From: Candidatus Nanohalococcus occultus
Lineage (GTDB): Archaea > Nanohalarchaeota > Nanosalinia > Nanosalinales > Nanosalinaceae
DNA: 64,000 nucleotides
Reading direction: 5' to 3'
NCBI RefSeq assembly: GCF_029207735.1
Contig: NZ_CP104395.1
Span: forward strand, 664,692 to 728,691
The notes under the pieces are model-generated. The model was not told where the DNA came from, did not search any database, and saw nothing but the letters and a program-made list of their open reading frames with translations. Below, one piece after another: positions 20,017-56,926 of this stretch; positions within the stretch are counted from its first letter, which is position 1; each line of letters opens with the position of its first letter. Made by a program: the position numbers and the translations under genes.

Positions 20017-20706
20017 CTAGTACATCTGATTCCAGGAACTGCCATCACAGCCGTAATGAGCGGTACCGTTGTAAGCAATATTTCCCTCAGTAGAGGAATC
20101 ACAGACCGGAAGACTGATCGAGTTCAACTCAAGCATTTGGGTGTTGGTAACGGTGTTACCTCGCATGTTAAGATTTCCATTCCCCATTATCTGGACCAGT
20201 TCCGCGGAATTATTCCTGAAGATAAAACCTTGATTCGCAGCACGGAGGAAAAGATCCCCTCCCTGAGCAGAAATACCATACTGGTCATCTCCCACCGTCA
20301 ACGTCTGGCCTGTAGTCGCATACTCTCCATAGACCCTGAGACGTCCACCAGGTATCTCAACGTTGCCTCCTCCCAGCGTTATAGGGCCTTGGCTGTCAGT
20401 GATTTCCTGTCCGTTCATATCGTTGCCTTGAGTGAGTACTTCGCCAAGTGTCTGATCGTCGCTGGACTGTGAGATCACCTGGTTGTCAACATAGCCTTTC
20501 GTGGCCGCATCCCTTGTATCGACAGGAGGCGCCAAGCCACTGATACCGTAGAAGCTCATGTTGAAACCTGTTGAGGACTTGTTACCCTCCTGTAGAACTG
20601 CTCCGAGAGCCGGGGCATCGGCCGGCGCTCCAAGCGGCACCCATCTCGCGGCAGTAAGCCCGGTAAGTAAGATCAAGGTAAGGACTAGGACGGTTTTGCG
20701 TTTCAC
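20017..20706 (-). CDS. Secreted tail-fibre-like protein
   Basis: This 229-residue protein starts at GTG 20706 (a TTG at 20712 is also possible; TTTAAATTC about 26 bp upstream favours the GTG). An N-terminal signal sequence (KRKTVLVLTLILLTGLTA) precedes modules common in phage tail fibres: PPVDTRDAATKGYVDNQV, QTLGEVLTQGND, and a C-terminal CDSSTEGNIAYNGTAHYGCDG segment ending WNQMY, with a Cys pair. The middle has GGGNVEIPGG and NGNLNMRGN units shared with the giants downstream. It is the outlying small member of the fibre family in this window. Confidence 0.75.
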   Translation of the reverse strand: MKRKTVLVLTLILLTGLTAARWVPLGAPADAPALGAVLQEGNKSSTGFNMSFYGISGLAPPVDTRDAATKGYVDNQVISQSSDDQTLGEVLTQGNDMNGQEITDSQGPITLGGGNVEIPGGRLRVYGEYATTGQTLTVGDDQYGISAQGGDLFLRAANQGFIFRNNSAELVQIMGNGNLNMRGNTVTNTQMLELNSISLPVCDSSTEGNIAYNGTAHYGCDGSSWNQMY

Positions 20707-20787
20707 ACTCAACTGTTCGGACAGCGAGAATTTAAACTCAGTGGCTGAACCGTAACGGCATACCGAGCTACTGAGTTAGATGGAGGG

Positions 20788-21108
20788 TTAAAAACCCATT
20801 CCGTGGCCGGGAACTGCTCCCATCTTGTTACGTCCTTCATCAGTCATCTTCTCCATTGTCCACGGCGGATCAAAGGTTAACTCGACTTCAATCTCTCCGA
20901 TATCCTCTAACTCGGATAACTCTTGGTTAATTACTTCCTCGAATATTCCGTGGAACGGACAGCCACGGGTTGTCAAAGTCATCAGTATGTGTACGTCTTC
21001 GTCCTCTACGTTGACCTCGTATACCAGTCCCATATCTACGATATTGATATCGAACTCGGGGTCTTTGACATCCTCCAGTTTTTCCTTTACCTGTTGTTCG
21101 GAAACCAT
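20788..21108 (-). CDS. MIP18/DUF59 family Fe-S assembly protein
   Basis: This 106-residue protein contains the DUF59 core KDPEFDINIVDMGLVYEV and the Cys-bearing LTTRGCPFHGIFEE, which is typical of SufT/PaaD/MIP18 proteins that help mature iron-sulfur proteins. The C-terminal TFDPPWTMEKMTDEGRNKMG is the conserved family tail. A TATA-like CTGTTTAAAG (minus, 21131-21140) is centred 27 bp upstream, giving a leaderless transcript. It is not part of the Tat pair that precedes it on this strand, although it lies only 47 bp away. Confidence 0.88.
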   Translation of the reverse strand: MVSEQQVKEKLEDVKDPEFDINIVDMGLVYEVNVEDEDVHILMTLTTRGCPFHGIFEEVINQELSELEDIGEIEVELTFDPPWTMEKMTDEGRNKMGAVPGHGMGF

Positions 21109-21155
21109 AATTAGTACCGAACCGTCCAGTCTTTAAACAGGTTTTTACCCGAGAA

Positions 21156-21845
21156 CTATTTTTCCGATAAACCAACCAGGTAGATACTTACCTGGTAAAG
21201 ACCTAAGACCGGGACCGTCACCATCAACTGCGTGATTATATCCGGCGGGGTCGCAAAAGCCGAAGCCAGCAAAACAGATACAATAAAGTACGGACGGTAC
21301 TCTCTCATCAACTCCCTGTTAATCAGACCTGCCTTCCCAAGTACGAAAGACACCACAGGAAGCTGGAAGATCAAACCGGAGAACGCAGCGATCTTAAACG
21401 CAAAACCCAGAGTGCTTTTCAAACCCCAGATAGATTCAACGCCCGAAGTATCCGCTACCTGCGCAAAAAAGTTCAAGCTGTACTTTACAACGACTTCGTA
21501 GCCGAAGGCCGCACCTACCGCGAAAAGAACCACGGAAAACGGAAGATAGTTTCTAACCGTATAATACTCCTGTTCGGAAAGACCGGGTTTAACGAAAAGC
21601 AATCCGTGGTACGCGATAAACGGCAGAGATAGGAAAAAAGCCGTGATACCCGCTATCATAAGCTGAGTGTAAAACGTTTCATACGCTGTAAGCGCGTTAA
21701 GCGCGAAACCAAGATCGTTTTGAACCCACGCCAGCATATCAGAAGAAAAATAAAACGAGAAAACCATAGCCAGTGAGAAAAAACCTAGCGAATACAAAAA
21801 ACGCTTTCTAAGCTCCTGAAGATGCTGTTCAAACCTTTGTTCCAT
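21156..21845 (-). CDS. tatC: Sec-independent translocase TatC
   Basis: This 229-residue, six-helix core subunit of the twin-arginine translocase exports folded proteins. The N-terminal EQRFEQHLQELRKRFLYSL carries the HLQELRKR motif that contacts Tat signals, and FVKPGLSEQEY matches the first periplasmic loop. The C-terminal helices FALPPDIITQ-like (ATPPDIITQLMVTVPVL) are well conserved. It lies 26 bp downstream of tatA, and next to two likely Tat substrates, so translocase and cargo are linked. Confidence 0.93.
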   Translation of the reverse strand: MEQRFEQHLQELRKRFLYSLGFFSLAMVFSFYFSSDMLAWVQNDLGFALNALTAYETFYTQLMIAGITAFFLSLPFIAYHGLLFVKPGLSEQEYYTVRNYLPFSVVLFAVGAAFGYEVVVKYSLNFFAQVADTSGVESIWGLKSTLGFAFKIAAFSGLIFQLPVVSFVLGKAGLINRELMREYRPYFIVSVLLASAFATPPDIITQLMVTVPVLGLYQVSIYLVGLSEK

Positions 21846-21871
21846 ACTTTACACTTTACCGTGGCTAGCTT

Positions 21872-22057
21872 TCAGCTCTCGTCTTCATCAGAGTTAAGCG
21901 CTTCAGTTACCTCATCCGCTTCCTTCATCGATTTCCTAAACTCCTTTTTCGACTCACCGAGACTTCCCGCAAGCTCCGGAAGTTTCTTCGGACCTAAAAC
22001 CAAAGCAACTATCGCTCCAGCCACCAACAAAAGTTCACTTGGACCTAATAGAGGCAT
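21872..22057 (-). CDS. tatA: Sec-independent translocase TatA
   Basis: This 61-residue pore subunit has one N-terminal membrane helix (GPSELLLVAGAIVALVLG), the hinge GPKKLPELAGSLGESKKEFRK as an amphipathic helix, and an acidic tail. The frame extends upstream to 22195, but the TatA start is MPLLGPSE at 22057, backed by TTTAAAAATA (22079-22088) centred 26 bp upstream. It is followed by tatC. Confidence 0.92.
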   Translation of the reverse strand: MPLLGPSELLLVAGAIVALVLGPKKLPELAGSLGESKKEFRKSMKEADEVTEALNSDEDES

Positions 22058-22078
22058 GTATGTAGTTAGTCGCGGCTG

Positions 22079-22088
22079 TTTAAAAATA
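22079..22088 (-). promoter_or_regulatory. TATA box for tatAC
   Basis: The minus strand reads TATTTTTAAA, centred about 26 bp from the tatA ATG at 22057. Confidence 0.5.
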
Positions 22089-22169
22089 CTGCGAACAAAC
22101 CCTAGCACCCAATCTGAGGTTCCAAAATCACTGCCTAACCAGATGACCGCTCCTGATAACACTAAACTG

Positions 22170-22952
22170 CTAAATGGCCACCCAGTTAGAACCATCCCAA
22201 TACTTCGGAGTTATATCTACCCAGTTAGAACCATCCCAATACTTGGAAGACGCGCTATCAAACACATCTCCTTTCCAGTAAAGTACAGGCGGTGTTATAT
22301 CAGTTATTACAACTTTTTGTTCTCCCCCATTCGAGTTGATAGTTACATCATATGTATCCGGATGTGCTGATCCAGTACCAGGGCTGCCGTCCTCACCATC
22401 CGTGTAGTCACCGGCATCTCCTCCGTCACCACCAGAGCCACCGTTACCTGTTCCTTCCCCATCCGAACCATCATCACCAGGACCACTATCATCATCGTCA
22501 GGGCCGCCGCCATACCCCTTAGATCCACCTCTGCCGCCTCCACCGCCTCCGCCACCAGGATATCTTAGCGTAGAGGTACTTCCGTATACATTGCCGCCGC
22601 CGCCTCCACCGCCGTCAGCTGCGACTATCAAAGCACCGTCAGAATCACGTCTGAGGCCTGCAGCGCCTCCTCCATGGCCTCCACTAGAATAAGAGTCTCC
22701 TCCTTGGCCGCCGTTAGCAAGCGGTGAAAGACGTCCATCCGGGACGTAAACCTTGAAAGTCTCCCCCGGAACAACATCTAACTTCGCGGAAACGTAACCA
22801 CCACTGCCACCAGATCCTTCTTCAGTGTCCACAACACCTCTAGTGTGGTAGCCGTCGTCGCCATTAGCTGCATATGCTTCAACTTTTATCCTAGTCACAC
22901 CTGGCGGAACCTTATACATAGTTTCCGTATTTCCTTCAGAAAAAGTAGGCAT
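22170..22952 (-). CDS. Gly-rich surface protein without its own signal peptide
   Basis: This 260-residue protein starts MPTFSEGNTETMYKVPPGV, has a lectin-like beta segment (VTRIKVEAYAANGDDG), then long Gly runs with Asp, and ends in two copies of a KYWDGSNWV unit (period 13 residues), a motif frequent at the ends of tail-fibre proteins. It has no signal peptide. It follows 11 bp after the Tat-leader gene and has a good ribosome site (GAGGAG, about 8 bases before ATG). It may be carried by the Tat protein or be a piece of a once-fused protein, as the paralogue at 23784-25001 is fused. Confidence 0.7.
   Translation of the reverse strand: MPTFSEGNTETMYKVPPGVTRIKVEAYAANGDDGYHTRGVVDTEEGSGGSGGYVSAKLDVVPGETFKVYVPDGRLSPLANGGQGGDSYSSGGHGGGAAGLRRDSDGALIVAADGGGGGGGNVYGSTSTLRYPGGGGGGGGRGGSKGYGGGPDDDDSGPGDDGSDGEGTGNGGSGGDGGDAGDYTDGEDGSPGTGSAHPDTYDVTINSNGGEQKVVITDITPPVLYWKGDVFDSASSKYWDGSNWVDITPKYWDGSNWVAI
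22180..22244. repeat. 39 bp-period direct repeat in the Gly-rich gene
   Basis: The 26 bp sequence at 22180-22205 recurs identically at 22219-22244, encoding the two YWDGSNWV units. Identity at the DNA level suggests a recent duplication. Confidence 0.85.
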
Positions 22953-22963
22953 AATATTCTCCT

Positions 22964-23299
22964 CTATATATTAAACCAGATATCATTGACATCCGGATCA
23001 GAGGGTTTTGAACTCTGAACATAAATATTAACACCATCAACCGTATCCGCGTCAATATCACTTAAACCACGAGTCCGCGGCTGAAAAGTACTCCAACCAG
23101 AAACCAAAGACGAAAAAGTCAAAGCACCAGCACCCAAACCCAAAGTCTTCAAGAAATTTCTACGCGACACACTCCCTGTATCCTTTTCAGAAGCCTTAAC
23201 CGAACTCGACTGCTCGGCCTTCTCTCTTTCCCTCAACTTTTCCTCGACCTTTCTATCAATTATCTGCTCTATATCATCCGGAAGATCTTTTTCACTCAT
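22964..23299 (-). CDS. Short Tat-leader protein
   Basis: This 111-residue protein carries a 45-residue charged N-terminal extension (MSEKDLPDDIEQIIDRKVEE...) and a twin-arginine signal VSRRNFLKTLGLGAGALTF with a hydrophobic core to about 68. What follows is only about 40 residues: IDADTVDGVNIYVQSSK then PSDPDVNDIWFNI, the GDIWFN-like start of a fibre ending. The next gene begins in another frame 11 bp later. Compared with its 405-residue paralogue it looks truncated or split. Confidence 0.75.
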   Translation of the reverse strand: MSEKDLPDDIEQIIDRKVEEKLREREKAEQSSSVKASEKDTGSVSRRNFLKTLGLGAGALTFSSLVSGWSTFQPRTRGLSDIDADTVDGVNIYVQSSKPSDPDVNDIWFNI

Positions 23300-23783
23300 T
23301 ATACCATTACTTTAGATTCCGTAGTATTTCAAAATAAGCCTAATAAAATCTGCCCAGAGATTCACCACGTAGCGAAATCAGGTTCGATATTAAATACTCC
23401 TTTTGCGATTATAGTTATGACGCCTCCTCTCCCCGCCACCTCCTTAATTTCGCGAATAACCCTGCCGCCACGAATGTAGGCGAAGAATGCCTTATATCTC
23501 AATCTCATCTTCAATTGCTAATGAGACGTTTCGAACTCTAACCAGGATACCTTTTTTCTCATTGACTCTGCTAGGCAACGCATTTCAATAAGCACCTCAC
23601 TTGTCAAACCATTGATCGTATGAGTCGACCATAGGAAAATCCGGCTTCAAACTAAATGAAACGCCAAAAACCTCTTAACCAATAACAGAGCCTATTATCC
23701 ATCAATGGTAATTAATATTTGTTCAGAGATTTGTCTTTCTGTTTCAATAATCTTGGAGGGATGACGAACTTTATGTTGTCGTC
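23300..23783. other. 484 bp gap with a duplication junction and decayed sequence
   Basis: Bases 23300-23312 match the bases before the other Tat-leader gene (25002-25014), including the CTAAAG plus stop codon that ends the 1,391-residue fibre gene there. Upstream of that junction similarity is lost. A minus-strand ORF of 48 codons (23362-23508, start MRLRYKAFFAYIRGG) contains AGRGGVITIIAKGV, which resembles the GGLVMLIAPK segment of the Gly-rich paralogue and may be a relic. No other feature is visible. Confidence 0.45.
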
Positions 23784-25001
23784 TTAGTTGAAAACCTTGA
23801 CAGTTCCCTCCACACCGTCATCACCGGTTTGACCAGGGGAGCCGTGGTTGCCGTCGTTTCCCAGCCCGCCCTCTCCACCGAGACCGCCGACTCCTTTCGA
23901 TAGATCAATGTTCGTCGTATCAAGTGGTCCGCGGGTTGCGGCTATGACCACTCCACCAGAACCACCACTGCCGCCACCGCCACCGCCGCCACCGCCTTCA
24001 GTCGAATTGAAGTAATTTGAGCCGTCTGTTCCATTAGATCCGTCAAGTCCATCTGTACCAGAAACATCAAGCACTCCATTAATGGTTATTTTAGGGGCGA
24101 TTAGCATCACGAGTCCGCCAGTATCGCCGCCCTTTCCACCGCCTCCTCCATCACCCCCGGAGGCGGAGACGCTTTCACCGCCGCCGCCGCCACCGCCACC
24201 AGCTCCAGACGATGAAGCGATAATGGAATATTCGAATATCGATTTCCACGGCTCCATAGAACGCGGAGAGAGGAAATCGTTGAATCGATTTTCTTCTGCG
24301 TCCGTCATGGATCTCGTCGGCGATAAACCGCCAGCGCCACCACTACCTTCTGAACCTTTGCCACCGCCGTCTCCGCCGTCTCCACCGTATATACCGGCAC
24401 CATGTAGGATGCCAGCTGCGCCCTCATCTCCGGGATCTCCGGGGTTTCCAGCGTCGTTCCCCTCTGAACCATTACCTCCGGCCCCCCCGGCACCACCAGA
24501 ACTACCTGTAACAACTCCGGATGCATCAAGAGTTCCCGAAATGATAATTTCTTCTGTTGCGTAGATTATCGATACGGGCGAGGTTGCTGTTCGGGTTACA
24601 CTATTTTGGATTTCATATGTAGTAGCAAAAATTGGCGAGGCAGGGATATTACCATCTGTCGATCTACTAACTACTCCGTCTGATCCATCTCCATATATGG
24701 GCGCATGTCCTCCTATCTCACTAGCATGTAATCCATCAACTGTATCGGCATCTATTTCACTTGTTCCGGAGTTTTGTGGCTGGATAAGACTCCAGCCGGA
24801 TACGAGTGAGGAAAATGTCAAGGCTCCGGCTCCAAGACCAAGGGTTTTCAAAAAGCCACGACGGGAGATACCCTCGTTCTTTTCCTGTTGTGAGGACTCA
24901 TCGGCTTCCAGGTTATCTGACTGTTTTTCCTGTTTCATACGTTCCTCGACTTTTCTATCAATTATCTCCTCTATATCATCCGGAAGATCTTTTTCACTCA
25001 T
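23784..25001 (-). CDS. Tat-exported Gly-rich surface protein
   Basis: This 405-residue paralogue of the 22964-23299 leader plus a Gly-rich body has the same charged N-terminal extension and twin-arginine signal ISRRGFLKTLGLGAGALTF, then IDADTVDGLHASEIGG, a phage tail-fibre motif. From about residue 160 it alternates Gly runs with beta strands (GGLVMLIAPKITINGVLDVSG; GGVVIAATRG), which suggests a beta-solenoid or a Gly-loop lectin. It begins 7 bp after the 1,391-residue gene. Being folded before export is the usual reason for Tat use. Confidence 0.78.
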   Translation of the reverse strand: MSEKDLPDDIEEIIDRKVEERMKQEKQSDNLEADESSQQEKNEGISRRGFLKTLGLGAGALTFSSLVSGWSLIQPQNSGTSEIDADTVDGLHASEIGGHAPIYGDGSDGVVSRSTDGNIPASPIFATTYEIQNSVTRTATSPVSIIYATEEIIISGTLDASGVVTGSSGGAGGAGGNGSEGNDAGNPGDPGDEGAAGILHGAGIYGGDGGDGGGKGSEGSGGAGGLSPTRSMTDAEENRFNDFLSPRSMEPWKSIFEYSIIASSSGAGGGGGGGGESVSASGGDGGGGGKGGDTGGLVMLIAPKITINGVLDVSGTDGLDGSNGTDGSNYFNSTEGGGGGGGGGSGGSGGVVIAATRGPLDTTNIDLSKGVGGLGGEGGLGNDGNHGSPGQTGDDGVEGTVKVFN

Positions 25002-25008
25002 TATACCA

Positions 25009-28000
25009 TCACTTTAGTTTTACCAGTATTTTATTCTTGTCTTTGGAGTTTTCGAGGGCGTTACCTATAGTGGTGCTTCTACAGTTTTCGTTGTGGGAGA
25101 TTATTTCTCGGAGTTCTTTGTCTTTGTTCTCCATTGGATCTATGATTTCACATTTCATCGCAGTACCTGGCTTCGATGACGGTACGAGTCGGTCTCCTCT
25201 TTGAATCTCTCCGTTTTCCTCGGTTACTTTGAGCGGCACCTTTCCTTCTAATGCGATCGGATAACCGGATTCTTCCTGGTTCATTACCTGGGAAGGATTG
25301 GATGATACGATACCGGTAACTGTTTCCTGATACCTCCCATCTGTTCTGACGACCGAATCATCTTTCTCTGTATTTATGGCTACAAGTTCTGCTTTTTCCA
25401 GTTCCTGTGGACTTGAGTACATCTCAGCCAGGTCTGCCCCGTTCGTCCAGATATTGCCCTCAACGGAAAGACTGTCGGCCACCGTGACATTGCCGGAAGT
25501 AGCCATTATATCGCCACCATTCATTTCCATATTACCGCCGTTGAGCTTCAGGTCTACCTGTGCGTTAAATGACCCTCCTGTGTTGGCGCTACCTAGCTCA
25601 ACAGTATTTGATTCATCTGCGTATGATAGAGGCCCTAGAGCCATACCGCCGTTGACACCTTCAGCGTAGTATCCAATCGCGTTTCCTTGTGCGTTCTGAC
25701 CGATAGCCATGCCGCCGTTGTCGGAACTGGCCTGTGAACCCACCGCGATAGAGTCTGCTCCCGCATAAGAACTTGATCCAACTGCGATAGCACTTGAACC
25801 ATTCGCATTCGAGCTTGATCCCAGAGCCAAGGCCCCAGTCGAGGTCCCTGTTGAACCATCATCTATACCTGCTTTCGCACCCCATCCAGCTGCTAGTCCA
25901 TAATTATCGTGTACTTCCGCAGAACCGCCTATTGCCTGGGAACCCACTCCTTCAACAACCGAAGCACCTGTCCCTATCACAATACCATCATCTCCTTGAC
26001 CGGAGGTATCAACTTGTGCATTTTTTCCTATTGCGATATCCTGTGTGTCCCCGGCGACGGTATTCGAGTTACCTAGGTAGATACCTGATGAGAACCGTAG
26101 CTGATCTAGACTGGTGACTGAACTAGAGTTCATATTCAGGTTTCCGTTTGGAATAGTTACCGCTCCTCCACCATCAAAACGGGCTATCTCGGTTGATCCG
26201 CCGTATATACTGAGGGCGTTAAGCGTTCCTCCAGTGTTTATATCACGGCTGTTCATATTGATGTCGTATACCGCAGTGTTTCCTTGGGCGAGAACCTCGC
26301 TTAGATCCTGGTTATCCGTATCTGTATCTGTATCTTCTTCGCAGTTACCGTTTCCGTTTACGAATTCATTAGAACCACAGTTCTGTAGGCCGCCAATATT
26401 AGTGATTCTGTTACCGCCCATCTCCAGATCCCCGGTTTCCAATGTGACGTTTCCAGCTCCTCCGCCATCGCCACTGATCGTCAGCCCCTGATTAACGTCA
26501 ATAGGAGAATCACCGTTGTTCGAGGTCATTGAAGCCACGTTGATATCGTTAACACTGATTATATCGCCGCTGCTCTGAAAGTTGATGGATCCGCTCAGTG
26601 TGCTTCCCTGAGTTCTTACCTCTTCCAAGGTCTGATCGTCGGTGTCCGTATCTGTCTCACAGTTACCGTTACCGTTCAGGAATTCATTCGAACCACAGCT
26701 TGTACCTGTGCTATCGACGATACCTCCTACTTCCCGCAGCGTGTTACCGTTTAGATCGGCTGCGCCGTTGAAGTTGACGTCCCCTCCGATGTCTACAAAC
26801 CGTCCTGCGTTCGAAGGATTACCGACATCCATCTCTCCGTCACTCCAGAGCCTGAACTGGGTGTCCGGTGTACTCTGGAAGTTCTGGGAGGTGTTAACTG
26901 ATGTTCCATCACCGTCACTTCTGACTTCGATCGCGAGATCTTCCCCGTCATCATCGGTCGCAATAAGAAGCGGTGCCGGCGAATCAGGATCGTTTACCGT
27001 GTTAAGAAGTCTAAGACCGTTTACATTACTTCCGTGATCTACAGTGGTCACGCCGTTAACTGTAGCGCTTCCGAAAGTGAACCCTGCTCCGTTTTGAATC
27101 TCGCTGTTATCAACAGAGTTATCGGAAATTTCATTGTCGGAAACAGAGCCGGAGACAAGATTCCCGGAGCCATCAAGGTCTCCAGCTGCGGAAAAATCAG
27201 CGATATTACCGGAACCGTCTAAATCATTCGCGTTATCGAAACTGGAGATATCTCCTGCCGAGTTAAGATCGGAAGCTGAACTGAAATCATTGATCGCTCC
27301 ACTGCCGTCTAAATCCGCAGCACCGCTGAAATCATTTATCGAGCCACCGCTGTTCAAGTCTGCGGCCGAGCTAAAGTCGTTAATGTTTCCTGAGGAATCA
27401 AGATCGCCGGCAGTACTCCAGTCAGCGTTTACCAAGGAATTACTGTTTAAATCTAGATCGGTCTCGAAGTACCATCGGTCGGTGCTGTTCTCAAAACCGA
27501 ACTCCTGGCTGAACTGACCGCTGCCAGCTTCCCGCGGCGCCATCCAAAGCCGCCCGGAGGACGTTGTACCAATCGCTAAACTGCCGTCACCGTTTTCAAT
27601 AGAGTTCACTGTACCTCCACTGTCCAGATTGTTCGCATTCGAGAAATCACTGATACTTCCTCCACTGTCTAAATCATTGGCTGACGAAAAGTCAGCGATA
27701 TTACCAGAAGAATCCAAATCATTAGCGTTATCAAAACTAGAAATATCACCCGCCGAATCAAGATCAGAGGCCGCACTGAAATCGTTGATTGTTCCCGCAC
27801 CGTTCAAATCGTTAGCGTTGTCAAAACTGGAGATGTCACCAGCAGAGTTAAGGTCGCTGGCACCACTCCAGTCCGCGTTTTGTATAACGTTTCCGTTCAG
27901 GTCTAGGGGTACGCTGCTGCCGCCTTGGCCAATACGGATTTCCCCATTCCCGCCGCCCGTAGAGCTTATCTCAAAGACATTGTTCCGGGAGCTGGTGTAT

Positions 28001-29184
28001 TCGTGGAAGACATAGTTACCGCCATCAGTAAGAACAAAATCCAGTTCAGGATCCCGCCCCTCTATAACCAAGTCGTTGTTAGCATAGTCGCTGGTTATTG
28101 AAGCCGGAGAACCTTTAGCGTTAGGGAACTCTAGCGAGGAGTTGACCGTTATCGAGTTAGCATCAGCAAGATTTCCTTGGTTCAAAACCTGTTCAAGGTT
28201 CTGATCGTCAGCAACCGTAGTATCCGTATCAGTATCAACCTCACAGTTACCGTTACCGTTTACAAACTCGTTGGCCCCACAGTTTTGAAGTCCGCCGATT
28301 CCGTTTATGTTGTAGTTATTCATGTTCAGTGCCGCATCCAGGTTAAGGGCATCGGAGTCATCGGCACTAAGTAAGACGTCTCCGCCCGGGTCTTGAATGA
28401 CAAATCTATTGTTATCATTCCCATCCATGTCTTGGTAAAGCACGAAGTCTCCACTGTTACCGCCGTATATATTCCCTCCTGCCATCTGGATATCGGTTCC
28501 TCCTGTGCTGTTACCATCACTTAATGTCTCGGAAAGAGTCTGGGTGTCTTCAACATCGTCGTTGCTGTTAACCCAGCTCTTGGTGGTAAAGGCCTGCCAG
28601 GAATCCCAGCCTCCGTTACTCCAACCGGAACGAATCCAGAGAGCGCCGTTGTCAGAGGTGTGATGGGAGACATACATCTGCATGATTCCCTGATTACCCG
28701 AACCCTCTGTGACAATTAGATGGCCGTAAGAGTAGGCCGAGGACGGCTGGTTGAGACTTGAGTTCAAACCACTTGAAATTGATACACCGTACATTCCTGG
28801 CTCAGTTAATGTGTTCCAGTCGGTGTTCTCCACCTGAGTGTTTTTATCGTTTAGAATATCATTTAACTGTTCGCCGTCAAGTAGGTCAGCGTCATCCGCG
28901 TAAGGTGCGGTGACACTTCCGCCGTTTTCCAATGTAATATCGTTCCCGCTGGTTCCCAGGTTCTGATCGTCGGTACCTGTGTTATCAGTGGCACAGTCGC
29001 CATCTGCCTGTAGAATCTCGTTACCGGAACACTGGGTTGAGGGCGTTCTGTCGGGCGGTATCTGTGCGGCCGTGGAAACTGAAAGTATCATTACAGCAGC
29101 TACCAGTAAAACCAGTGCCAAGACCTTGCTGCCTTCTAAATGCCTCATTCCGTGTTTATATTTCATCTTTGTTTGTTTATACAT
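25009..29184 (-). CDS. Giant fibre adhesin: knob, 15-residue repeats, YadA-like head, AE-type C-terminal domain
   Basis: 1,391 residues with a Sec signal at about 20-40. Residues 121-202 match pyocin-knob tail-fibre domains: TDWNTLTEPGMYGVS, then GHLIVTEGSGNQGIMQMYV, LWIRSGW and WDSWQAF. Three clear copies of the NEF-NGNGNCE/DTDTDT module follow. Two blocks of 15-residue repeats (xSxGxIxDFSxAxDL) and DNEISDNSVDNSEIQN units lie in the middle. About 1035-1200 resembles YadA/Hep_Hag head repeats (SIAVGSQAS, MAIGQNAQG, ALALGSSSNANG). The last 142 residues start ADLAEMYSSPQEL and contain VTGIVSSNPSQVM and VPLKVTEENGEIQRGD, a domain also ending a 1,692-residue paralogue. Confidence 0.88.
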   Translation of the reverse strand: MYKQTKMKYKHGMRHLEGSKVLALVLLVAAVMILSVSTAAQIPPDRTPSTQCSGNEILQADGDCATDNTGTDDQNLGTSGNDITLENGGSVTAPYADDADLLDGEQLNDILNDKNTQVENTDWNTLTEPGMYGVSISSGLNSSLNQPSSAYSYGHLIVTEGSGNQGIMQMYVSHHTSDNGALWIRSGWSNGGWDSWQAFTTKSWVNSNDDVEDTQTLSETLSDGNSTGGTDIQMAGGNIYGGNSGDFVLYQDMDGNDNNRFVIQDPGGDVLLSADDSDALNLDAALNMNNYNINGIGGLQNCGANEFVNGNGNCEVDTDTDTTVADDQNLEQVLNQGNLADANSITVNSSLEFPNAKGSPASITSDYANNDLVIEGRDPELDFVLTDGGNYVFHEYTSSRNNVFEISSTGGGNGEIRIGQGGSSVPLDLNGNVIQNADWSGASDLNSAGDISSFDNANDLNGAGTINDFSAASDLDSAGDISSFDNANDLDSSGNIADFSSANDLDSGGSISDFSNANNLDSGGTVNSIENGDGSLAIGTTSSGRLWMAPREAGSGQFSQEFGFENSTDRWYFETDLDLNSNSLVNADWSTAGDLDSSGNINDFSSAADLNSGGSINDFSGAADLDGSGAINDFSSASDLNSAGDISSFDNANDLDGSGNIADFSAAGDLDGSGNLVSGSVSDNEISDNSVDNSEIQNGAGFTFGSATVNGVTTVDHGSNVNGLRLLNTVNDPDSPAPLLIATDDDGEDLAIEVRSDGDGTSVNTSQNFQSTPDTQFRLWSDGEMDVGNPSNAGRFVDIGGDVNFNGAADLNGNTLREVGGIVDSTGTSCGSNEFLNGNGNCETDTDTDDQTLEEVRTQGSTLSGSINFQSSGDIISVNDINVASMTSNNGDSPIDVNQGLTISGDGGGAGNVTLETGDLEMGGNRITNIGGLQNCGSNEFVNGNGNCEEDTDTDTDNQDLSEVLAQGNTAVYDINMNSRDINTGGTLNALSIYGGSTEIARFDGGGAVTIPNGNLNMNSSSVTSLDQLRFSSGIYLGNSNTVAGDTQDIAIGKNAQVDTSGQGDDGIVIGTGASVVEGVGSQAIGGSAEVHDNYGLAAGWGAKAGIDDGSTGTSTGALALGSSSNANGSSAIAVGSSSYAGADSIAVGSQASSDNGGMAIGQNAQGNAIGYYAEGVNGGMALGPLSYADESNTVELGSANTGGSFNAQVDLKLNGGNMEMNGGDIMATSGNVTVADSLSVEGNIWTNGADLAEMYSSPQELEKAELVAINTEKDDSVVRTDGRYQETVTGIVSSNPSQVMNQEESGYPIALEGKVPLKVTEENGEIQRGDRLVPSSKPGTAMKCEIIDPMENKDKELREIISHNENCRSTTIGNALENSKDKNKILVKLK
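27166..27411 (-). repeat. 45 bp tandem repeat block B in the 1,391-residue fibre
   Basis: About five units of 15 codons, consensus xSxGxIxDFSxAxDL. Codons differ between units while the peptide is kept, so the array is old and under selection. Confidence 0.8.
27609..27870 (-). repeat. 45 bp tandem repeat block A in the 1,391-residue fibre
   Basis: About six units of the same 15-codon repeat, separated from block B by a non-repeat stretch containing GSLAIGTTSSGRLWM. Fixed 15-residue periodicity suggests a beta-solenoid or triple-stranded stem. Confidence 0.8.
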
Positions 29185-29187
29185 TTA

Positions 29188-31260
29188 CTAGTCGAGTGTT
29201 TTACAGACCACACCGTAGGTATCGTGCGATGTTGTACTGTCATCGTACAGGTAGGATGCCGCACAGGAACCACCTATCGAGCTACCCTGCATACAGTGTC
29301 CGTTATCATCAGTTATAGTGGATCTTATACCAGCCCCCCACCCCTGGTTGTCCTGTTCGTTGTCCCCTCCTGAGTAACCCCAGCAGACACGTCCAGGCAT
29401 ATCCGCCTCGTCAAACGCGATGCTTGGCGGACTCATCTCAATACCCCACATACCGCTGCCGAAGTTCCTGATACATGCTCCGCCATCACAGTTAGTAGTC
29501 CCTGAACCAGGAACAGTCATGGACCCAGAGCTTCCATTACTCATCCTGTAATCCCCTGTCTCCAGCGAGATCGAAGTCCAGAAGTAATCGGAGCTAGCAG
29601 CATACCTCGAATCCGCATACCCTCTTGGAACCGCATCATCATCACTGTTCGGATCAGCTACGTTCTCCACACGGTTCCCGCCAGCATCAACGTTGCCGGT
29701 GGCCGCCACATCATCCAGCTGAGTGTTATCATCCGTGAAAGTTGCTGAATTCCCGTTATCAATATCTATAGTGGTTTCTCCACCGCCGGCAGGATCGGCT
29801 CCAACGCTCAAATCCTGATCGTCGGCAACAGTTGTGTCTGTATCAGTATCAACTTCACAGTTTCCGTTTCCGTTTACGAATTCATTGGCGCCACAGTTCT
29901 GTAAACCGCCGATTCCGTTGATGTTATTGTTGTTTAACTCGAGAGAACCGTCTCTAATCTCTACCTGACCGCCGTTAACGGCAAAACCGACGCCCTCCGA
30001 TTTAGCGTTACCGGTTCCTGTACTTTCATCTACGCTGACATCGAATCCTCCGGATTCATCGAGTCTTACATGTGTTCCACCGGTACCGGCGACAATATTG
30101 TTGTTAGGATCGATACCGGATTTTATATTGAAGTTACCGGAACCGTCGTGGATTGTAATATACTGATCTCCATCGTCAAGGTTCAAATGATTGCCATTCG
30201 TGTCCAAAGGTGCGTTAAGAGTCACGCCGTTGAACGTAAAACTGCCGCCGTTTTGAATCTCGCTGTTGTCCACGGTGTTGTCCGCAATCTCATTGTCCGA
30301 GACCGAACCGGACGTCAAACTCCCGGATGAATCCAGATCGTTAGCCGCCGAGAAATCGTTTATACTTCCTGACGCATCTAGATCGCCGGCATCGCTCCAG
30401 TCCGCATTCGTGATCGGATTGCCATCCATGTTAAGTGTGCCGTTGTGGATTGTCTCTCCGACGTTGCTATCGTCGTTGCCGCCGGGATTCAGGTAAAGAT
30501 CTCCTGCCGGAATCAACCGTATATGGTCGTTGCTCGCATCGGCTCCGTCGTTCATCGTTCCTAGTTCAAGCCCGAAGTTCTCTCCGCTGCCATCAACGTC
30601 ATCGATCGCATTTATGTAACCGTAATCACTTCCCGAGTTTTCACCTGAACGGAAACGTATCTCTGAGTTTCCTCCATTAGGATTGTTGAAAGTCATTACG
30701 CGGCCTCCACGACCTGTTACAAGCTGGTTGAAATCAGCCACATCATTATTATTCATGTTTAAATTCCCGGTTTCAAGGGTTACGCTGCCGTCTCCACCAC
30801 TGTCACCGTCTACTGTAAAGCCCTGGTGGAAAAGAATATCGCTGTCGCCGTTGTTCGATGTTATACTTCCTACATTCAGGAAGTTAGCGCTGTTAACTCC
30901 GCCATTGCTCTGAAAGTCGAGGTCTCCGCTCATCACGTCGCCTCCGCGGTTGACATAACGGTCGTCGACGCTTCCGGTATCAAGTTCGTTGACTGAGACA
31001 GCTCCCGAGTTAATGTTACCAGAGTTTACAATATTCGAGCCGCCGAGGTTGGAGATACCGATTATCGGGTTACCGCTCATATCTATAGTTCCTGTTACAT
31101 TGATGTTCTGGGAGGAGAACGGAGTTATTCTTTCAATATTTTGAAGCTCCGAGGCAGATACCGTTGAAACTACGAGAATTAACAAAGCGGTTAACGCTAA
31201 AAGTTTCCGGTGTTTCGGCTCTAGTCTAATTGACACGTGTTTATCTCCCAGGGTTTTCAA
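29188..31260 (-). CDS. Secreted fibre protein, 690 residues
   Basis: The start is TTG at 31260 or GTG at 31236; the signal helix is LLALTALLILVVSTVSA. Body units include GSVSDNEIADNTVDNSEIQN and LNLDDGDQYITIHDG, one NGNGNCE/DTDTDT module (after GIGGLQNCGANEF) and the fibre motif VPRGYADSRYAAS. The C-terminal 120 residues contain YDDSTTSHDTYGV and five cysteines (CDGGACI, CWGYSG, CMQGSS, CAASYL, VVCKTLD), which looks like a distinct disulfide-rich tip. It is 3 bp upstream of the 1,391-residue gene. Confidence 0.85.
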   Translation of the reverse strand: MKTLGDKHVSIRLEPKHRKLLALTALLILVVSTVSASELQNIERITPFSSQNINVTGTIDMSGNPIIGISNLGGSNIVNSGNINSGAVSVNELDTGSVDDRYVNRGGDVMSGDLDFQSNGGVNSANFLNVGSITSNNGDSDILFHQGFTVDGDSGGDGSVTLETGNLNMNNNDVADFNQLVTGRGGRVMTFNNPNGGNSEIRFRSGENSGSDYGYINAIDDVDGSGENFGLELGTMNDGADASNDHIRLIPAGDLYLNPGGNDDSNVGETIHNGTLNMDGNPITNADWSDAGDLDASGSINDFSAANDLDSSGSLTSGSVSDNEIADNTVDNSEIQNGGSFTFNGVTLNAPLDTNGNHLNLDDGDQYITIHDGSGNFNIKSGIDPNNNIVAGTGGTHVRLDESGGFDVSVDESTGTGNAKSEGVGFAVNGGQVEIRDGSLELNNNNINGIGGLQNCGANEFVNGNGNCEVDTDTDTTVADDQDLSVGADPAGGGETTIDIDNGNSATFTDDNTQLDDVAATGNVDAGGNRVENVADPNSDDDAVPRGYADSRYAASSDYFWTSISLETGDYRMSNGSSGSMTVPGSGTTNCDGGACIRNFGSGMWGIEMSPPSIAFDEADMPGRVCWGYSGGDNEQDNQGWGAGIRSTITDDNGHCMQGSSIGGSCAASYLYDDSTTSHDTYGVVCKTLD

Positions 31261-31331
31261 GTGCGTTAAGGAACTACAGTGTTCCCTGAAAAGTTTTTCT
31301 CTCCGCTTGTTTATAGGTCTTCACCAGAGGA

Positions 31332-32204
31332 TTACTGAACGTAGATCGATCCCTGTACCGTGCCATTGGACCGCACCAGGATCGCATCATAATACGTTAT
31401 CGACTCCGGTACGACAGTCCACGATTTACCGGCGGGAAGCGTAAAACCTTTTAACTCGGATTCAAAGGTCATCTCAAGCGGACCGGAGGCGTTGTTGACA
31501 AACCTGACACCATCACCGCTTTTTATCGATGCCCGGGATGGTTTCGCAAGCCTTTCATTCAAGAATACTTCGACAGTCTCTCCTTCAACTTCCGGAGGCT
31601 GACGGTCCGGAAGCGAGATTTCTTCGAACTCCGAGTTCTCCTGCTCGTTAGATGTACTATCAGCACCAATAGTTGGAAGATTCAAAGCCGGCAAGCTAAA
31701 GGAAGGAACCTGTACCGAAGGCGTCTGTACCGAAAGACCGTCTTCAGGCACGTAACGCGGGCCGTAAACCACGGCCGCCGAGAAAAAGAGTAAAACCAAG
31801 ACAGCAATCCCCGCCGGTTTTCCGTAAGTGCCAGCAACAGAAACCATCCGAGAAACCACCGTACCCAGCCGCTCTCTGAAACCCGGTCCCTGAACCTTTT
31901 TCTGACCTTTATCCGACTCAGATCCAGCGTCTCCGGTTTCACTGCTTTCCGAGGCCTCTACATCCGCCAGCTTCCGATCCATTTTCTTATCGAAAACTTC
32001 TTGGGTGCTTAGATCGACTTTGCCGCCAGATAAACCATCTTCTTCCTCTTTTTGATCGTCTAGATTGTTTTCCCGTTCCTTGATGACTTTATCCACTATT
32101 TCCGGGCTGTAGCCTTTGTTCTCAAGACTTGAACGGATTCTTTCCGGCTGTATGCCGTCATCGAGTTTCTGTCCGACCCAGTTTTCCAGTTTTTTACTAT
32201 CCAT
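31332..32204 (-). CDS. Membrane-anchored protein with a cupredoxin-like outer domain
   Basis: 290 residues. An N-terminal helical region (KKLENWVGQKLDDGIQPERI) resembles short domains that bind partners. An acidic linker follows, then a membrane helix at about 127-147 (AGIAVLVLLFFSAAVVYG). A Pro/Ser/Gln linker leads to a C-terminal beta-domain of about 80 residues with SGDGVRFVNNASGPLEMTF and TLPAGKSWTV, cupredoxin-like but lacking an obvious Cys-His copper site. Its own TATA box is at 32226-32235. It may anchor or sense the adhesins; inference only. Confidence 0.75.
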   Translation of the reverse strand: MDSKKLENWVGQKLDDGIQPERIRSSLENKGYSPEIVDKVIKERENNLDDQKEEEDGLSGGKVDLSTQEVFDKKMDRKLADVEASESSETGDAGSESDKGQKKVQGPGFRERLGTVVSRMVSVAGTYGKPAGIAVLVLLFFSAAVVYGPRYVPEDGLSVQTPSVQVPSFSLPALNLPTIGADSTSNEQENSEFEEISLPDRQPPEVEGETVEVFLNERLAKPSRASIKSGDGVRFVNNASGPLEMTFESELKGFTLPAGKSWTVVPESITYYDAILVRSNGTVQGSIYVQ

Positions 32205-32225
32205 ACCTACAGTTTCGAGAGTCTG

Positions 32226-32235
32226 GGATAAAAAG
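32226..32235 (-). promoter_or_regulatory. Possible internal promoter in the surface-protein cluster
   Basis: The minus strand reads CTTTTTATCC in a 42 bp gap, centred 27 bp before the ATG at 32204, suggesting a second transcription start for the downstream fibres. Confidence 0.35.
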
Positions 32236-32246
32236 TTCTCCAGTTT

Positions 32247-35200
32247 TTACCGCGCGTAGAAGTACGGGTTCTCGAACTCTAGTGTGTGACCTCCATCAGG
32301 AGTGAAGTCTCCTTCTCCCCAGTGTGCTATACGTCCGTTACCGTCCCTGAAGCCGAGGTGTGTTGGGATATCTCCATCATCTAAGCTCCTCCAGTCAATG
32401 TAGTCTGTCCAGGTACCTCCTGAACCGTGGTTGGAGCCTAGAACATAGTCGCCGCCGACCGAAGGACTTGGATCGGATGAAGGGAATATAGTCATACATC
32501 CACCGTAGACACAGTCATAGTCGCTTGGATGAGCGACCGCGAAGACATCTGTTATCGGCTCATCGATGTCATCCGTGTACCAGTCTCCGACGTAGTAAGT
32601 ACCGTCTTCCGTTGTATCGGAAAGTGCCTGGATCTGAGCCGGATGAATAGGATTGCCGTTAGCACTGTAATAGTCCCATACCGCAGTCTTGCCCTCATAG
32701 CTGGACATAAATGCTTTCCCTATGGACCATGTCTCGTTGTTACCTGTATTTGAGACCCATCCCTGACCGTTGCCGAAGTTGACTTCGCTTCCGGACTCCC
32801 ACATGAATGAGTTTTCTCCAAACGCCCATCCCTTATCACCGCTTACAGCACCATCCTTAGTAGTGTAAAGCCGTGTCCATCCACCTCCGTTCTCTCCCAT
32901 CTCACAGTAGACTTCGAAAGGCGAGTAACCGCCACTGCCATCGGGATCGATCCGGAAGACGCCGCTATGCGTCGAATCCTGCCTTTCTTTAATCTCCTGA
33001 CAGTCCCTTGGAACATCGTACCGCTGCCGACTGCTTGAGACACCGGCCGAACCAGAGTTCATAACATTTTTGACACCTCCGTCAGACAGCGCGTAAGGAT
33101 ATATACGCACATCATCTATCTTTCCCTCGAAAGGTAGAGAGCCGCTATCAGATATCCGTGTGCTGCTACCAGAATCTCTTACTGATACACTGACAGACTT
33201 TGAATCTTGTAATACTCCGTTCTGATATATTTTCAATGTAGAGCCATCATAAGTACCGGTTAAATGATGCCACTCATTCTGTGGGATAGTGTAACCTCTC
33301 ACTATATGGGAGTCAGAGCCATCATGAATATACATTGAACCTTGTGCATTCCCTCCATCAGCAAACAAAAGAGTATCATAAGTTCCTGCGTTAAGAATAT
33401 CTGCTCTATCAGCAGGACCTTTTCTTTTAACCCAGGCGGAAATAGAGAGCTTGTTATTGTTATCAAACTGCTCAATCCCGTCTATGCTGACATAATCATC
33501 GTTTCCATCGAATTCAAGGGCAGAACCTCTCTTACCCGCAGTAAGGTTCGCACCATATACAGTTCCATCATTATCGCCCGCAGAATCGTACGTCTTGTTG
33601 CCGTAGACAGAATCAAAGCTCCATTTGGCAGTGGGGCCGGCAGATCCATCTTTTCTGTCTCTACCGTTCGTATAAAGATTCCAGACCTCGGTTTCAGACA
33701 GGGCGCGGTCATGTATTTTAGCCTGATCAAGGCTTACTTTTCCAAACGTAGAAGCGCCTGAAATCCTATAAGAGCCGCCTAGTTTCAACCCCCTAGTAGT
33801 TGAGAAATCGTTCAAATCCGCCTTACTATCCGTATCTGCGAGCCTTCCATCAACATACAGTTTGGCTTCTTTAGCCGGAGCGTTGAAGACGCCTACAACG
33901 TGATGCCATTTCTTGTCAATCGATGTTTGTACCACTAAACCAGTTCCACTCCCATCTCTGGCACCAAACCTTATATCACCCGCATAAAGGTCAAACCCTG
34001 ATGAATACGTAGTATGTCCTTTGATCATAACCCCGCTAGTCGCATCTTCGCGTTTTATCCAGGTAGAATACGTGAAATTATCAGAGTTAGTGAAATTCAA
34101 GACCTCATCATTCGGTATGTCTAGAGAATCATCACTTCCGTCAAAACCAAGACATTTGCCAGACTTACAGTTCTCAGAACCTTTCACTTCTGGCCCGTTC
34201 ACCAGTTCTCCGTGATTAGCTTCTCCGCTTTCATCGACGGCGACTTTCCCATCCGTACCCGACGGACAGCTAACAGTATCGGAGTTTCCACAGGTTTCAA
34301 CTCGGTCAAAGGATTGGTCAAGTACAAGTCCTTCTTGAAGGCCTGTAGAAGCGGATTCTGTAGAAGAGCCTATGTTAGACTCTCCTTTACGGTAGAGCTG
34401 TTTGACTTGGGCGTTAGAAGCAGCGTAAGGATAGATTTTCACCTCATCAATTTCTCCTTTCCAACCATAATCCTGATCAAACGTACCTGAGTTCCTCCAG
34501 GCATTGTAACCTACAACAAGCTGTCTGCTCGATTTAAAATAAGGTCCAGCGAAAGAGGTTTGATCTAGTAATTCCCCGTCCTGATAGAATTTTACCGTTG
34601 AATTATCATAAGTTCCTACAACATGAGTCCATCCTCCACTAATCAGGCTACCGGATGCTTCAACGTATCCGTTTCCGTTCCCTCTACCAACTCTGAAAGA
34701 ATCAGGTCTTAGACCAAATCCTTCATCCGGAGCGGTTATCTCATCGGAGACTAATGAGTCATCATTGTAGTTGCCTTCTGTCTTATACCAAGCCGAAACC
34801 GTGAGACGGGCCGGTTTGTCACCGACACTGTCAAGGCCAGGTTCAACTCTATCATCAAAACCGTCAAACTCAAGCGCTTTCCCTATCACACCATCGACTC
34901 TTTGTGGACCCACAGTTTCATCCGGCTGAAAAATCCCTGTATTACCTTCGCCAGAGTGATCGTAGGCCTTATCACCTCCATTACGGTTGAACCGCATATC
35001 CAGAACCGCTCCCCTAGATTCAATATTTTCCGCCTGTTGAATTACCTCCTCCTGGGTCAGCGGCTGGTTGAAGACTTTGAACTCATCGATCCGTCCCTCC
35101 CAGTGATTACTTGTTATATCGTCTGTGCCTTCAGTGTTACCTCCTAGGACAACAGGACGGGCGTTATGGCTCCAGCCGGAGTTGTAGCTGAAGTTTTGTT

Positions 35201-36440
35201 CCAGCTGGCCGTCAGTGTAAAGTTCTATTTCCGAGGCCGAAGAGTTAAACACTAGAGACGTATGATGCCACTCGGAGTCATCCATGTTGAACTGGTAGCT
35301 ATTTCCGCCGTCATAATACAGGCTATAACTGTCTTCTCCTTCATTTCTAAGGCAGAACCATTCGTTACAGTCCTGTGTTATTATCCTGTCTCCGGCTGAA
35401 ACACCTTCACCTTCCTTAAACCAAAACATAAACGTCCTAGACACCGAATGATCGCTCCAGACCGTATCAAGATCGATTCCTGTACCTCCTGCTCCGTCAA
35501 AGCTGGCACAGCGACCAATCTGACAGTTAACCATGGTTTTCTGTGAGATACCATTTTGTTTTCTACCGTGATTTTCCTGGCCCGAGGTATCGAGGACATG
35601 GGTCGAGTTCTGATGCTGGAAGCTAAGATCCATTATATTTGATTCGCTGTCTTTTCCCTCTGAGCCAATACGCCAAGATCCTCGGTTGTAAAGCGTCTTT
35701 ATCTCGGAATCAGAGAGCGGATTTGAGTAAATCCGTGCCTGATCAATTTTACCATCAATATATCCTCCAGAACCTCCCTCTCCGAACTGTAGGTTTTTAG
35801 AGTTACTCGCAAGATCAATGTCGCCTACTGAAGTGGTATCTCCAAGTTTTCCGTCCCTGAAAACAGTCATATCTCCAGTTTGCGGGTCGTATCGCATAAC
35901 TAGATGCGTCCATCTTCTATGCGGAATATTGTCTATATTTGCCCGGTAGTAATTTCCGGACTGATCGCCCAACGTGGGATCGAATCTGAACTTATCTCCG
36001 GTAACACTGTCCATAATCATAGCGTACGGATCGTTTGCGAATGCTCCTTTACTCATTGCTATTGACCAGTCTCCTACATTGTCTTGACGCGAGTAGAACC
36101 AGAACGAGACCGTTATGCCTTCAGTCTGTCCTTCAAGAGACGGATCATCTGGGACTGTTACCTGATCTCCGTTCTGTGAAAAATCCATTGCTTTGCCGCT
36201 GACTCCTTCAGACCAGCCGGCTCCATTAATATCCCCGTCATTACCGCCAGCACTATCATAGACTGTATTTCCAGTCCCGGTATCAAACCGGTATTCGGCT
36301 ACGAGATCGCTGGATGAGCCTGCGGAAAGTATCGGACCGTTTCCTGACTGTGCTGCGACTCCTGCAATACCTAGAATTAATGTGAGAGCTATTATCTCCG
36401 TTGAACGTTTCTCGGCTTTCTCAATTACTTTTTCCTTCAC
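32247..36440 (-). CDS. Giant five-LamG adhesin with a fibrinogen-like C-terminus
   Basis: 1,397 residues, starting GTG with overlap of the previous stop. Signal helix at about 15-30. Five LamG/concanavalin jelly rolls run to about residue 1150; each starts like LVAEYRFDTGTGN and ends like IDDVRIYPYALSDGGV. The fourth carries the CPSG-DG-VAVDESG-NHGEL linker shared with two paralogues. Residues about 1165-1397 resemble a fibrinogen-like domain: PRDCQEIKERQDSTHSGVFRI, then PFEVYCEMGENGGGWTRLY with the two cysteines, and later a DYDCVYGGC loop. Such domains bind glycans, which suggests surface sugar binding. Overlaps the 394-residue gene by 4 bp. Confidence 0.88.
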   Translation of the reverse strand: MKEKVIEKAEKRSTEIIALTLILGIAGVAAQSGNGPILSAGSSSDLVAEYRFDTGTGNTVYDSAGGNDGDINGAGWSEGVSGKAMDFSQNGDQVTVPDDPSLEGQTEGITVSFWFYSRQDNVGDWSIAMSKGAFANDPYAMIMDSVTGDKFRFDPTLGDQSGNYYRANIDNIPHRRWTHLVMRYDPQTGDMTVFRDGKLGDTTSVGDIDLASNSKNLQFGEGGSGGYIDGKIDQARIYSNPLSDSEIKTLYNRGSWRIGSEGKDSESNIMDLSFQHQNSTHVLDTSGQENHGRKQNGISQKTMVNCQIGRCASFDGAGGTGIDLDTVWSDHSVSRTFMFWFKEGEGVSAGDRIITQDCNEWFCLRNEGEDSYSLYYDGGNSYQFNMDDSEWHHTSLVFNSSASEIELYTDGQLEQNFSYNSGWSHNARPVVLGGNTEGTDDITSNHWEGRIDEFKVFNQPLTQEEVIQQAENIESRGAVLDMRFNRNGGDKAYDHSGEGNTGIFQPDETVGPQRVDGVIGKALEFDGFDDRVEPGLDSVGDKPARLTVSAWYKTEGNYNDDSLVSDEITAPDEGFGLRPDSFRVGRGNGNGYVEASGSLISGGWTHVVGTYDNSTVKFYQDGELLDQTSFAGPYFKSSRQLVVGYNAWRNSGTFDQDYGWKGEIDEVKIYPYAASNAQVKQLYRKGESNIGSSTESASTGLQEGLVLDQSFDRVETCGNSDTVSCPSGTDGKVAVDESGEANHGELVNGPEVKGSENCKSGKCLGFDGSDDSLDIPNDEVLNFTNSDNFTYSTWIKREDATSGVMIKGHTTYSSGFDLYAGDIRFGARDGSGTGLVVQTSIDKKWHHVVGVFNAPAKEAKLYVDGRLADTDSKADLNDFSTTRGLKLGGSYRISGASTFGKVSLDQAKIHDRALSETEVWNLYTNGRDRKDGSAGPTAKWSFDSVYGNKTYDSAGDNDGTVYGANLTAGKRGSALEFDGNDDYVSIDGIEQFDNNNKLSISAWVKRKGPADRADILNAGTYDTLLFADGGNAQGSMYIHDGSDSHIVRGYTIPQNEWHHLTGTYDGSTLKIYQNGVLQDSKSVSVSVRDSGSSTRISDSGSLPFEGKIDDVRIYPYALSDGGVKNVMNSGSAGVSSSRQRYDVPRDCQEIKERQDSTHSGVFRIDPDGSGGYSPFEVYCEMGENGGGWTRLYTTKDGAVSGDKGWAFGENSFMWESGSEVNFGNGQGWVSNTGNNETWSIGKAFMSSYEGKTAVWDYYSANGNPIHPAQIQALSDTTEDGTYYVGDWYTDDIDEPITDVFAVAHPSDYDCVYGGCMTIFPSSDPSPSVGGDYVLGSNHGSGGTWTDYIDWRSLDDGDIPTHLGFRDGNGRIAHWGEGDFTPDGGHTLEFENPYFYAR

Positions 36441-37621: not shown

Positions 37622-37627
37622 ATTCCT

Positions 37628-45581: not shown

Positions 45582-45582
45582 C

Positions 45583-54505: not shown

Positions 54506-54568
54506 CTGTACGGTAATTTCTCAGGCCTAGTTAAGAAACCGTTCACCTCAGCACAAAGGACCAGGTTG

Positions 54569-55234
54569 TTAGGCCGTGGCGTTGACTGTCTGGTTTCCAG
54601 TTGTCGACTGGTTCGAAGAGGTCTCTGTTTCCTCTTCCGGAGGATTGACTTCCGCTGCGGACATGTATGTTACGAACTCTCCTGTAGAGCCATTTTTCGG
54701 AGTGGTTGATATTATCGCTCTGCCGTCCCCTAGCTTCATGTAAACCCAATCATCCTCGGTCTTCCAGTAGGTAACCTCTTCAGTCGGTATCTTACTCATC
54801 TTCGTACAAGTATCGATTAAATCACGTGGACAGTCAACGTATTCTTGCTGGTAAGGCGTCAAGTTCAGCTCTGGCTGCTGTTCAGTTTCAGGATCTAGGT
54901 CAGCCGAGAGAAAACTAAAAGCCAGGAAAACAATCAAACCAGTGCCGACTGTCAGCGCCGGAGCGTAGAGATAATGTCGTTTATCAAGCTCTATGTTCTC
55001 ACGGGCCTCTACTAGACGTTCCTTGGCTGATTCAACGTTTACAGTAGTTTCCGCGGATTCAGAATCCTTTTTCCCCGATGTGACTTTGAGGTCTTTCCCG
55101 TCATTTGGCTCCTCAACCTCCTCGCCTTCTGTTTGATCTGGTTCCTCTACTTGCTCAGCTTCATCATGTTGTTCTGTCTCGGATGTGTTTTCCTCCGGGA
55201 CCTCATCGTCCGAGACGTCTTTTTCATCAGCCAT
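54569..55234 (-). CDS. Single-pass membrane protein with an acidic cytoplasmic part
   Basis: 221 residues. The first about 95 are strongly acidic and probably disordered. A membrane helix at about 100-122 (LYAPALTVGTGLIVFLAFSF) is followed by an outer domain with a Cys pair (DCPRDLIDTC) and YMKLGDGRAIISTTP strands, and a Thr/Asn-rich tail with possible N-glycosylation sites. No family is recognised. It sits between two adhesins (64 bp and 41 bp gaps) and could be an anchor or assembly factor; inference. Confidence 0.72.
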   Translation of the reverse strand: MADEKDVSDDEVPEENTSETEQHDEAEQVEEPDQTEGEEVEEPNDGKDLKVTSGKKDSESAETTVNVESAKERLVEARENIELDKRHYLYAPALTVGTGLIVFLAFSFLSADLDPETEQQPELNLTPYQQEYVDCPRDLIDTCTKMSKIPTEEVTYWKTEDDWVYMKLGDGRAIISTTPKNGSTGEFVTYMSAAEVNPPEEETETSSNQSTTGNQTVNATA

Positions 55235-55274
55235 ACCAAAGAATTAGATTCGTTATTGAAAACCTTTCCCCGAT

Positions 55275-56831: not shown

Positions 56832-56926
56832 TTGCTAATGCTCGTGAAGGTTTTACCCAGAGCTGAATTTAAAGATTCTAAGGAAAATAAGAGGAGAAAA
56901 ATGGAGAGGGAAATGGGGAGAGGCCG

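Follow-up and report, generated by a model that had tools for sequence, protein, structure and literature searches.

A nanohaloarchaeal fibre-like surface protein with a pyocin-type knob, a YadA-type head, and a phi29 gp12-type C-terminal domain

Introduction

According to Reva et al. 2023 (PMC10266531), Candidatus Nanohalococcus occultus (SVXNc) lives as an ectosymbiont attached to Haloferax, and an earlier note on its DNA read one of its genes as encoding a surface protein assembled from phage tail-fibre parts. We asked which parts of this protein, SVXNc_0798, are related to virus fibres, whether a provirus accounts for them, and what the cell might use them for. The analysis covered a 64,000-nucleotide stretch (the window; bases 664692-728691 of the 948,351-bp, single-contig chromosome) together with comparisons to other genomes and viruses.

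Part of the answer is already in print. The passage of Reva et al. 2023 on this protein (PMC10266531) reports an R-pyocin knob and proposes host recognition, and a literature search on DPANN, pyocin, and knob found only that paper; the earlier note thus rediscovered an annotation published in 2023. The lengths given there appear to count the stop codon and, for SVXNc_0798, to start at Met7. The same paper assigns a ClfA/MSCRAMM domain, which was not recovered by Pfam or PDB sequence searches; to judge from the sequence, Ser/Asp-rich 15-residue repeats may account for that annotation. Neither the YadA head nor the phi29 gp12-type C-terminus is mentioned in the passage itself, and the same goes for the 15-residue repeats and for the absence of the knob in relatives. 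What is new here is the C-terminal domain, the YadA head, the repeat, the absence of the knob from 393 other archaeal genomes, and the position of the knob near the N-terminal membrane segment.

Results

SVXNc_0798 has a modular, fibre-like architecture

The reading frame proposed in the earlier note is intact, with 1391 open codons and an ATG start. From N to C terminus, the protein consists of a hydrophobic segment, the knob, repeats, the YadA head, and the gp12-type C-terminal domain, with the following features:

25009..29184 (-): fibre-like surface protein SVXNc_0798, an ORF of 1391 aa with an ATG start
29065..29130 (-): N-terminal hydrophobic segment, aa 19-40, signal peptide or signal anchor (hydropathy scan)
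28864..28890 (-): ADLLDGEQL motif, aa 99-107
28579..28845 (-): pyocin-type knob domain, aa 114-202 (tblastn, profiles, PHROG, fold match)
28243..28281 (-): Cys module CGANEFVNGNGNC, aa 302-314
27631..27855 (-): five 15-residue repeats, aa 444-518, DLDSxGxIxDFSxAx, spacing exactly 15
27181..27405 (-): five 15-residue repeats, aa 594-668
25582..25956 (-): YadA-type head, aa 1077-1201 (phmmer)
25009..25443 (-): C-terminal domain with the phi29 gp12 C-terminal fold, aa ~1248-1391

The segment at aa 19-40 is the only strongly hydrophobic one in the hydropathy scan, and the knob lies ~75 residues past it. Further copies of the Cys module occur at aa 830 and aa 936 and in sister proteins. The ten 15-residue repeats, in two blocks of five, are exactly spaced, with autocorrelation peaks at 15 and 30. 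Residues 1077-1201 matched the Yersinia YadA head (1p9h) with an E value of 2.6e-6, and the homologous region of a relative in genome G003 (L046:9199-13671) matched PF05658 at 3.2e-25.

The knob is related to phage and pyocin fibres

The knob that the earlier note placed at about residues 121-202 is real and spans aa 114-202. Pfam, PHROG, and NCBIfam scans of the whole protein missed it; as an isolated domain, it scores in PHROGs, in contrast to Pfam and NCBIfam. A tblastn search with the isolated domain returned 113 phage records (best E 2e-4, an Arthrobacter phage); the named matches are mostly tail fibres or minor tail proteins, and identity reaches at most ~37% among the matches listed. 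In an alignment of eight diverse phage knobs, the residues D, G, Y, N, Q, W, and W are invariant, a core pattern that the SVXNc_0798 knob has in common with them. A profile built from phage knobs only scored 65.4 bits at aa 114-201, its sole match among the 349 ORFs of the window (5000 shuffles reached 10.7 bits at most), although its rows were chosen for similarity to SVXNc_0798 itself. For this reason we give more weight to the independently chosen PHROG profiles, which matched the isolated knob at 5.7e-12 to 1.4e-5, a tail protein family among them at 8.8e-7.

Structural comparison led to the same family. The knob alignment profile reached the R1 pyocin fibre (6cl5) in the PDB with an E value of 2.3e-4. 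Structure prediction of this region, which the earlier note had suggested as a check, gave a single-chain model of pLDDT 75 built from 11 aligned sequences. The predicted fold agrees with that of knobs, an antiparallel sheet of 5-6 strands covered by loops, and is best matched by the R1 pyocin fibre, with Z 10.5 for pyocin fibres. In Foldseek, 6cl5 was the rank 1 match to this model, with a probability of 1.00 yet an E value of only 1.2e-2. Z scores against pyocin R1/R2, phi11, and the AS12 spike were 10.1-10.6, compared with ~4 for unrelated rows.

The C-terminus has the phi29 gp12 C-terminal-domain fold

The same note had called the C-terminus a fibre-end type domain, and comparison of its predicted structure (pLDDT 88) narrows this description to the phi29 gp12 C-terminal-domain fold. 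Both named domains thus match virus fibre folds, the knob that of the R1 pyocin fibre and the C-terminus that of gp12. The model aligned with gp12 at Z 14.4 (3suc) and Z 14.2 (3gqh, the C-terminal fragment; 1.9 Å over 104 residues), followed by head-cement folds, including one of Haloferax tailed virus 1 (8qsy, Z 12.7). The 3gqh match begins at model residue 27, which corresponds to gp12 residue 692, the first of that fragment; on this model, a gp12-like cut would therefore fall near aa 1250. Asp1251 and Glu1254 are invariant in the domain alignment. The SVXNc_0798 copy itself gave no match to Pfam Peptidase_G2 (PF11962), but 15 of the 39 members of its alignment match it (best 7e-7), so that the domain is tied to this family through relatives only; a literature search on Peptidase_G2 autoproteolysis found nothing.

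Relatives of this domain stand at the end of many viral ORFs. On viral contigs, 532 of the 600 matches to the pattern proved to be relatives, and the domain formed the C-terminal end in all 51 viral ORFs inspected. On genome contigs, only 5 of 56 matches proved to be relatives; they come from one nanohaloarchaeon, one acidobacterium, two CPR bacteria, and a bin labelled Bacteroidia. Because the two scans used somewhat different patterns, the ratio between them is only indicative. The domain is common to SVXNc_0798, the sister protein at 37628-42706, and genomes G003, G009, and G013. It also occurs (L154) within a very long open frame, 3623 aa, in an archaeon that does not belong to this phylum (G355).

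SVXNc_0798 lies in a cluster of surface proteins

The gene is part of a longer run of genes on the same strand:

20017..57532 (-): surface-protein cluster of fibre-like proteins, three five-LamG proteins, TAT-signal proteins, and TatC
29188..31260 (-): adjacent fibre-like protein, 690 aa, with shaft modules in common
37628..42706 (-): sister fibre-like protein SVXNc_0803, 1692 aa, with the same C-terminal domain and no knob

Two signal-bearing cluster proteins (20017-20712 and 29188-31260, both (-)) carry tail-fibre-like motifs PVDTRDAATKGYVD and gave a weak PHROG tail-fibre match (0.001) and a weak PF03906 match (0.017). At 21156-25001 (-), the TatC gene adjoins genes for two TAT-signal proteins (22964-23299 and 23784-25001), whose mature parts start with ADTVDG, similar to the ADLLDG of the ADLLDGEQL motif in SVXNc_0798; relatives of these genes stand at the same place in G003. 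The conserved 394-aa protein at 36437-37621 (-) has no family, and its relative in G009 (47% identity) there too follows a fibre gene. Elsewhere in the window are a HEPN and nucleotidyltransferase gene pair in a toxin-antitoxin type arrangement (19291-19976 (-)) and, in an Rfam scan that returned only tRNAs, a tRNA match over 165 bases (7785-7949 (+)) that ARAGORN missed and that is probably an intron-bearing tRNA gene.

No provirus genes were found around the gene, and among the archaea searched the knob occurs only in SVXNc

The earlier note also held that no phage structural genes lie nearby, and we agree: searches around SVXNc_0798 turned up no genes for a capsid, a terminase, or tail assembly, and the window showed no virion, baseplate, or packaging gene. 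Of two hallmark families sought in the whole genome, TerL (PF03237) and the HK97 capsid (PF05065), neither was found, and the GC content of the cluster equals that of its surroundings. The PHROG "virion structural" matches of a LamG protein rest, we think, on the shared LamG fold. We reject a prophage reading on the grounds that TerL and the HK97 capsid were not found in the genome, nor virion assembly genes around SVXNc_0798, and that the GC is even.

Among 394 archaeal genomes searched, the knob was found only in SVXNc, compared with 9 of 388 for the C-terminal domain, which is scattered through several archaeal families. Homologous clusters in the sister genera represented by G003 and G009 hold different fibres, without a knob, that end in the same C-terminal domain; the G003 fibre also has a YadA head and shares only aa 1048-1391 with SVXNc_0798. 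Because these homologous fibres lack the knob and only 1 of 394 archaea has it, the knob appears to be a separate acquisition, recent or rarely kept. Its relatives that we examined come from bacterial viruses or from plasmids that carry tail-fibre genes, the plasmids contributing only three, all weak. No donor of the knob was found, scans of viral contigs with single proteins (the SVXNc_0798 knob and phage knobs L037 and L044) gave no relatives, and phages yielded no relatives at the DNA level. From these sequence relationships, we propose that the knob and the C-terminal domain came from virus-type fibres in separate events.

Discussion

On balance, we think it probable that SVXNc_0798 forms a homotrimeric, secreted, beta-rich surface fibre that helps SVXNc to hold its Haloferax host. 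Where structures of YadA have been solved, they are homotrimers. The same holds for the pyocin fibre (PMC6116203) and for the phi29 appendage gp12 (PMC9863714), and with all three families alike in this respect, we favour a trimeric fibre. A role in surface attachment is favoured because the gene clusters with LamG proteins, TatC, and TAT substrates and because SVXNc is an ectosymbiont. A thin filament bridges SVXNc and Haloferax cells in cryo-ET (PMC11001535). In the mechanism that we envisage, the chain would be exported by the Sec route, and its N-terminal segment would tether it to the membrane, although cleavage of the signal might remove this anchor. Close to the base, the knob would lock the three chains and perhaps also bind sugar, long beta repeats would form the stalk, and the YadA-type head would present the main outer adhesive surface. 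The C-terminal gp12-type domain would nucleate trimer folding as an intramolecular chaperone and then be kept at the tip or cut off.

The simplest version of this idea, a receptor-binding knob at the tip, is weakened because the knob lies near the base. If the N-terminal segment is an anchor, the knob would be membrane-near, at the base and not at the tip. The authors of the pyocin-fibre study suggest that knobs matter for trimer folding (PMC6116203), and the knob is no less likely to serve as a trimer clamp than as a receptor-binding tip; as a base clamp, it would leave the YadA head and the C-terminal cap to face the partner cell. These considerations, together with the chaperone fold of the C-terminal domain, the polysaccharide binding that would suit the neighbouring LamG proteins, and the degradation of xylan by the consortium, also favour a different account: SVXNc_0798 may be mainly structural, or bind the coat or S-layer of its own cell or else a polysaccharide, for example xylan, its knob and C-terminal domain serving only trimer folding. 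We regard this account as possible, if rather doubtful, since YadA-type heads are adhesive in bacteria and a lineage-specific knob and cluster suit a changing partner surface. An elaborate form of the attachment reading seems unlikely to us, namely that virus modules placed close to either end have given SVXNc a trimeric attachment fibre that assembles by itself, its trimerisation driven by a gp12-type chaperone that then cleaves itself off, and that SVXNc uses this fibre in the manner of a virus to choose and grip Haloferax.

Two further accounts tie the protein to viruses more directly. Since virion proteins typically have domains like the knob and the C-terminal domain, SVXNc_0798 might be a true virion fibre, either left over from a provirus, virus-like particle, or tailocin-like device or carried as its cargo. 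The signal-type N-terminus, the lack of the two hallmark families from the genome and of virion or baseplate genes from the window, the even GC, and the homologous fibre clusters in sister genera make this highly improbable. The match of the C-terminal fold to a head protein of Haloferax tailed virus 1, in a symbiont whose host is a Haloferax, would suit a decoy or immunity factor, one that binds virus particles or keeps haloviruses from host receptors by competition. That fold is, however, common to many phage cement proteins, and no sequence tie to haloviruses was found; we give the idea very little credence.

The cultivated pair of SVXNc and Haloferax lucentense makes this virus-type fibre a testable candidate for host recognition. 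To judge from the gp12-type end domain and the YadA head, and from the homologous loci of the sister genera with their different fibres that lack a knob, virus fibres and cell adhesins seem to have exchanged modules.

Comparison with known systems

The R1 and R2 pyocin fibres (6cl5, 6cl6) and the receptor-binding protein of Staphylococcus phage phi11 (5efv) share the fold of the SVXNc_0798 knob (Z 10.1-10.5 over 92-99 residues). Unlike the pyocin and phi11 fibres, SVXNc_0798 has a single knob near its N-terminus and comes without a lectin tip and without contractile tail genes. The phi29 appendage gp12 (3gqh, 3suc) resembles the last 141 residues of SVXNc_0798 in fold and has this domain in the same C-terminal position, but identity is 17-20%, the parent protein here is cellular, and its cleavage is putative. 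The trimeric autotransporter adhesin YadA (1p9h, type Vc) has head repeats like aa 1077-1201; SVXNc_0798 differs from it in lacking a C-terminal outer-membrane barrel, in whose place it carries the gp12-type fold, and in its reversed polarity, with the membrane segment at the N-terminus.
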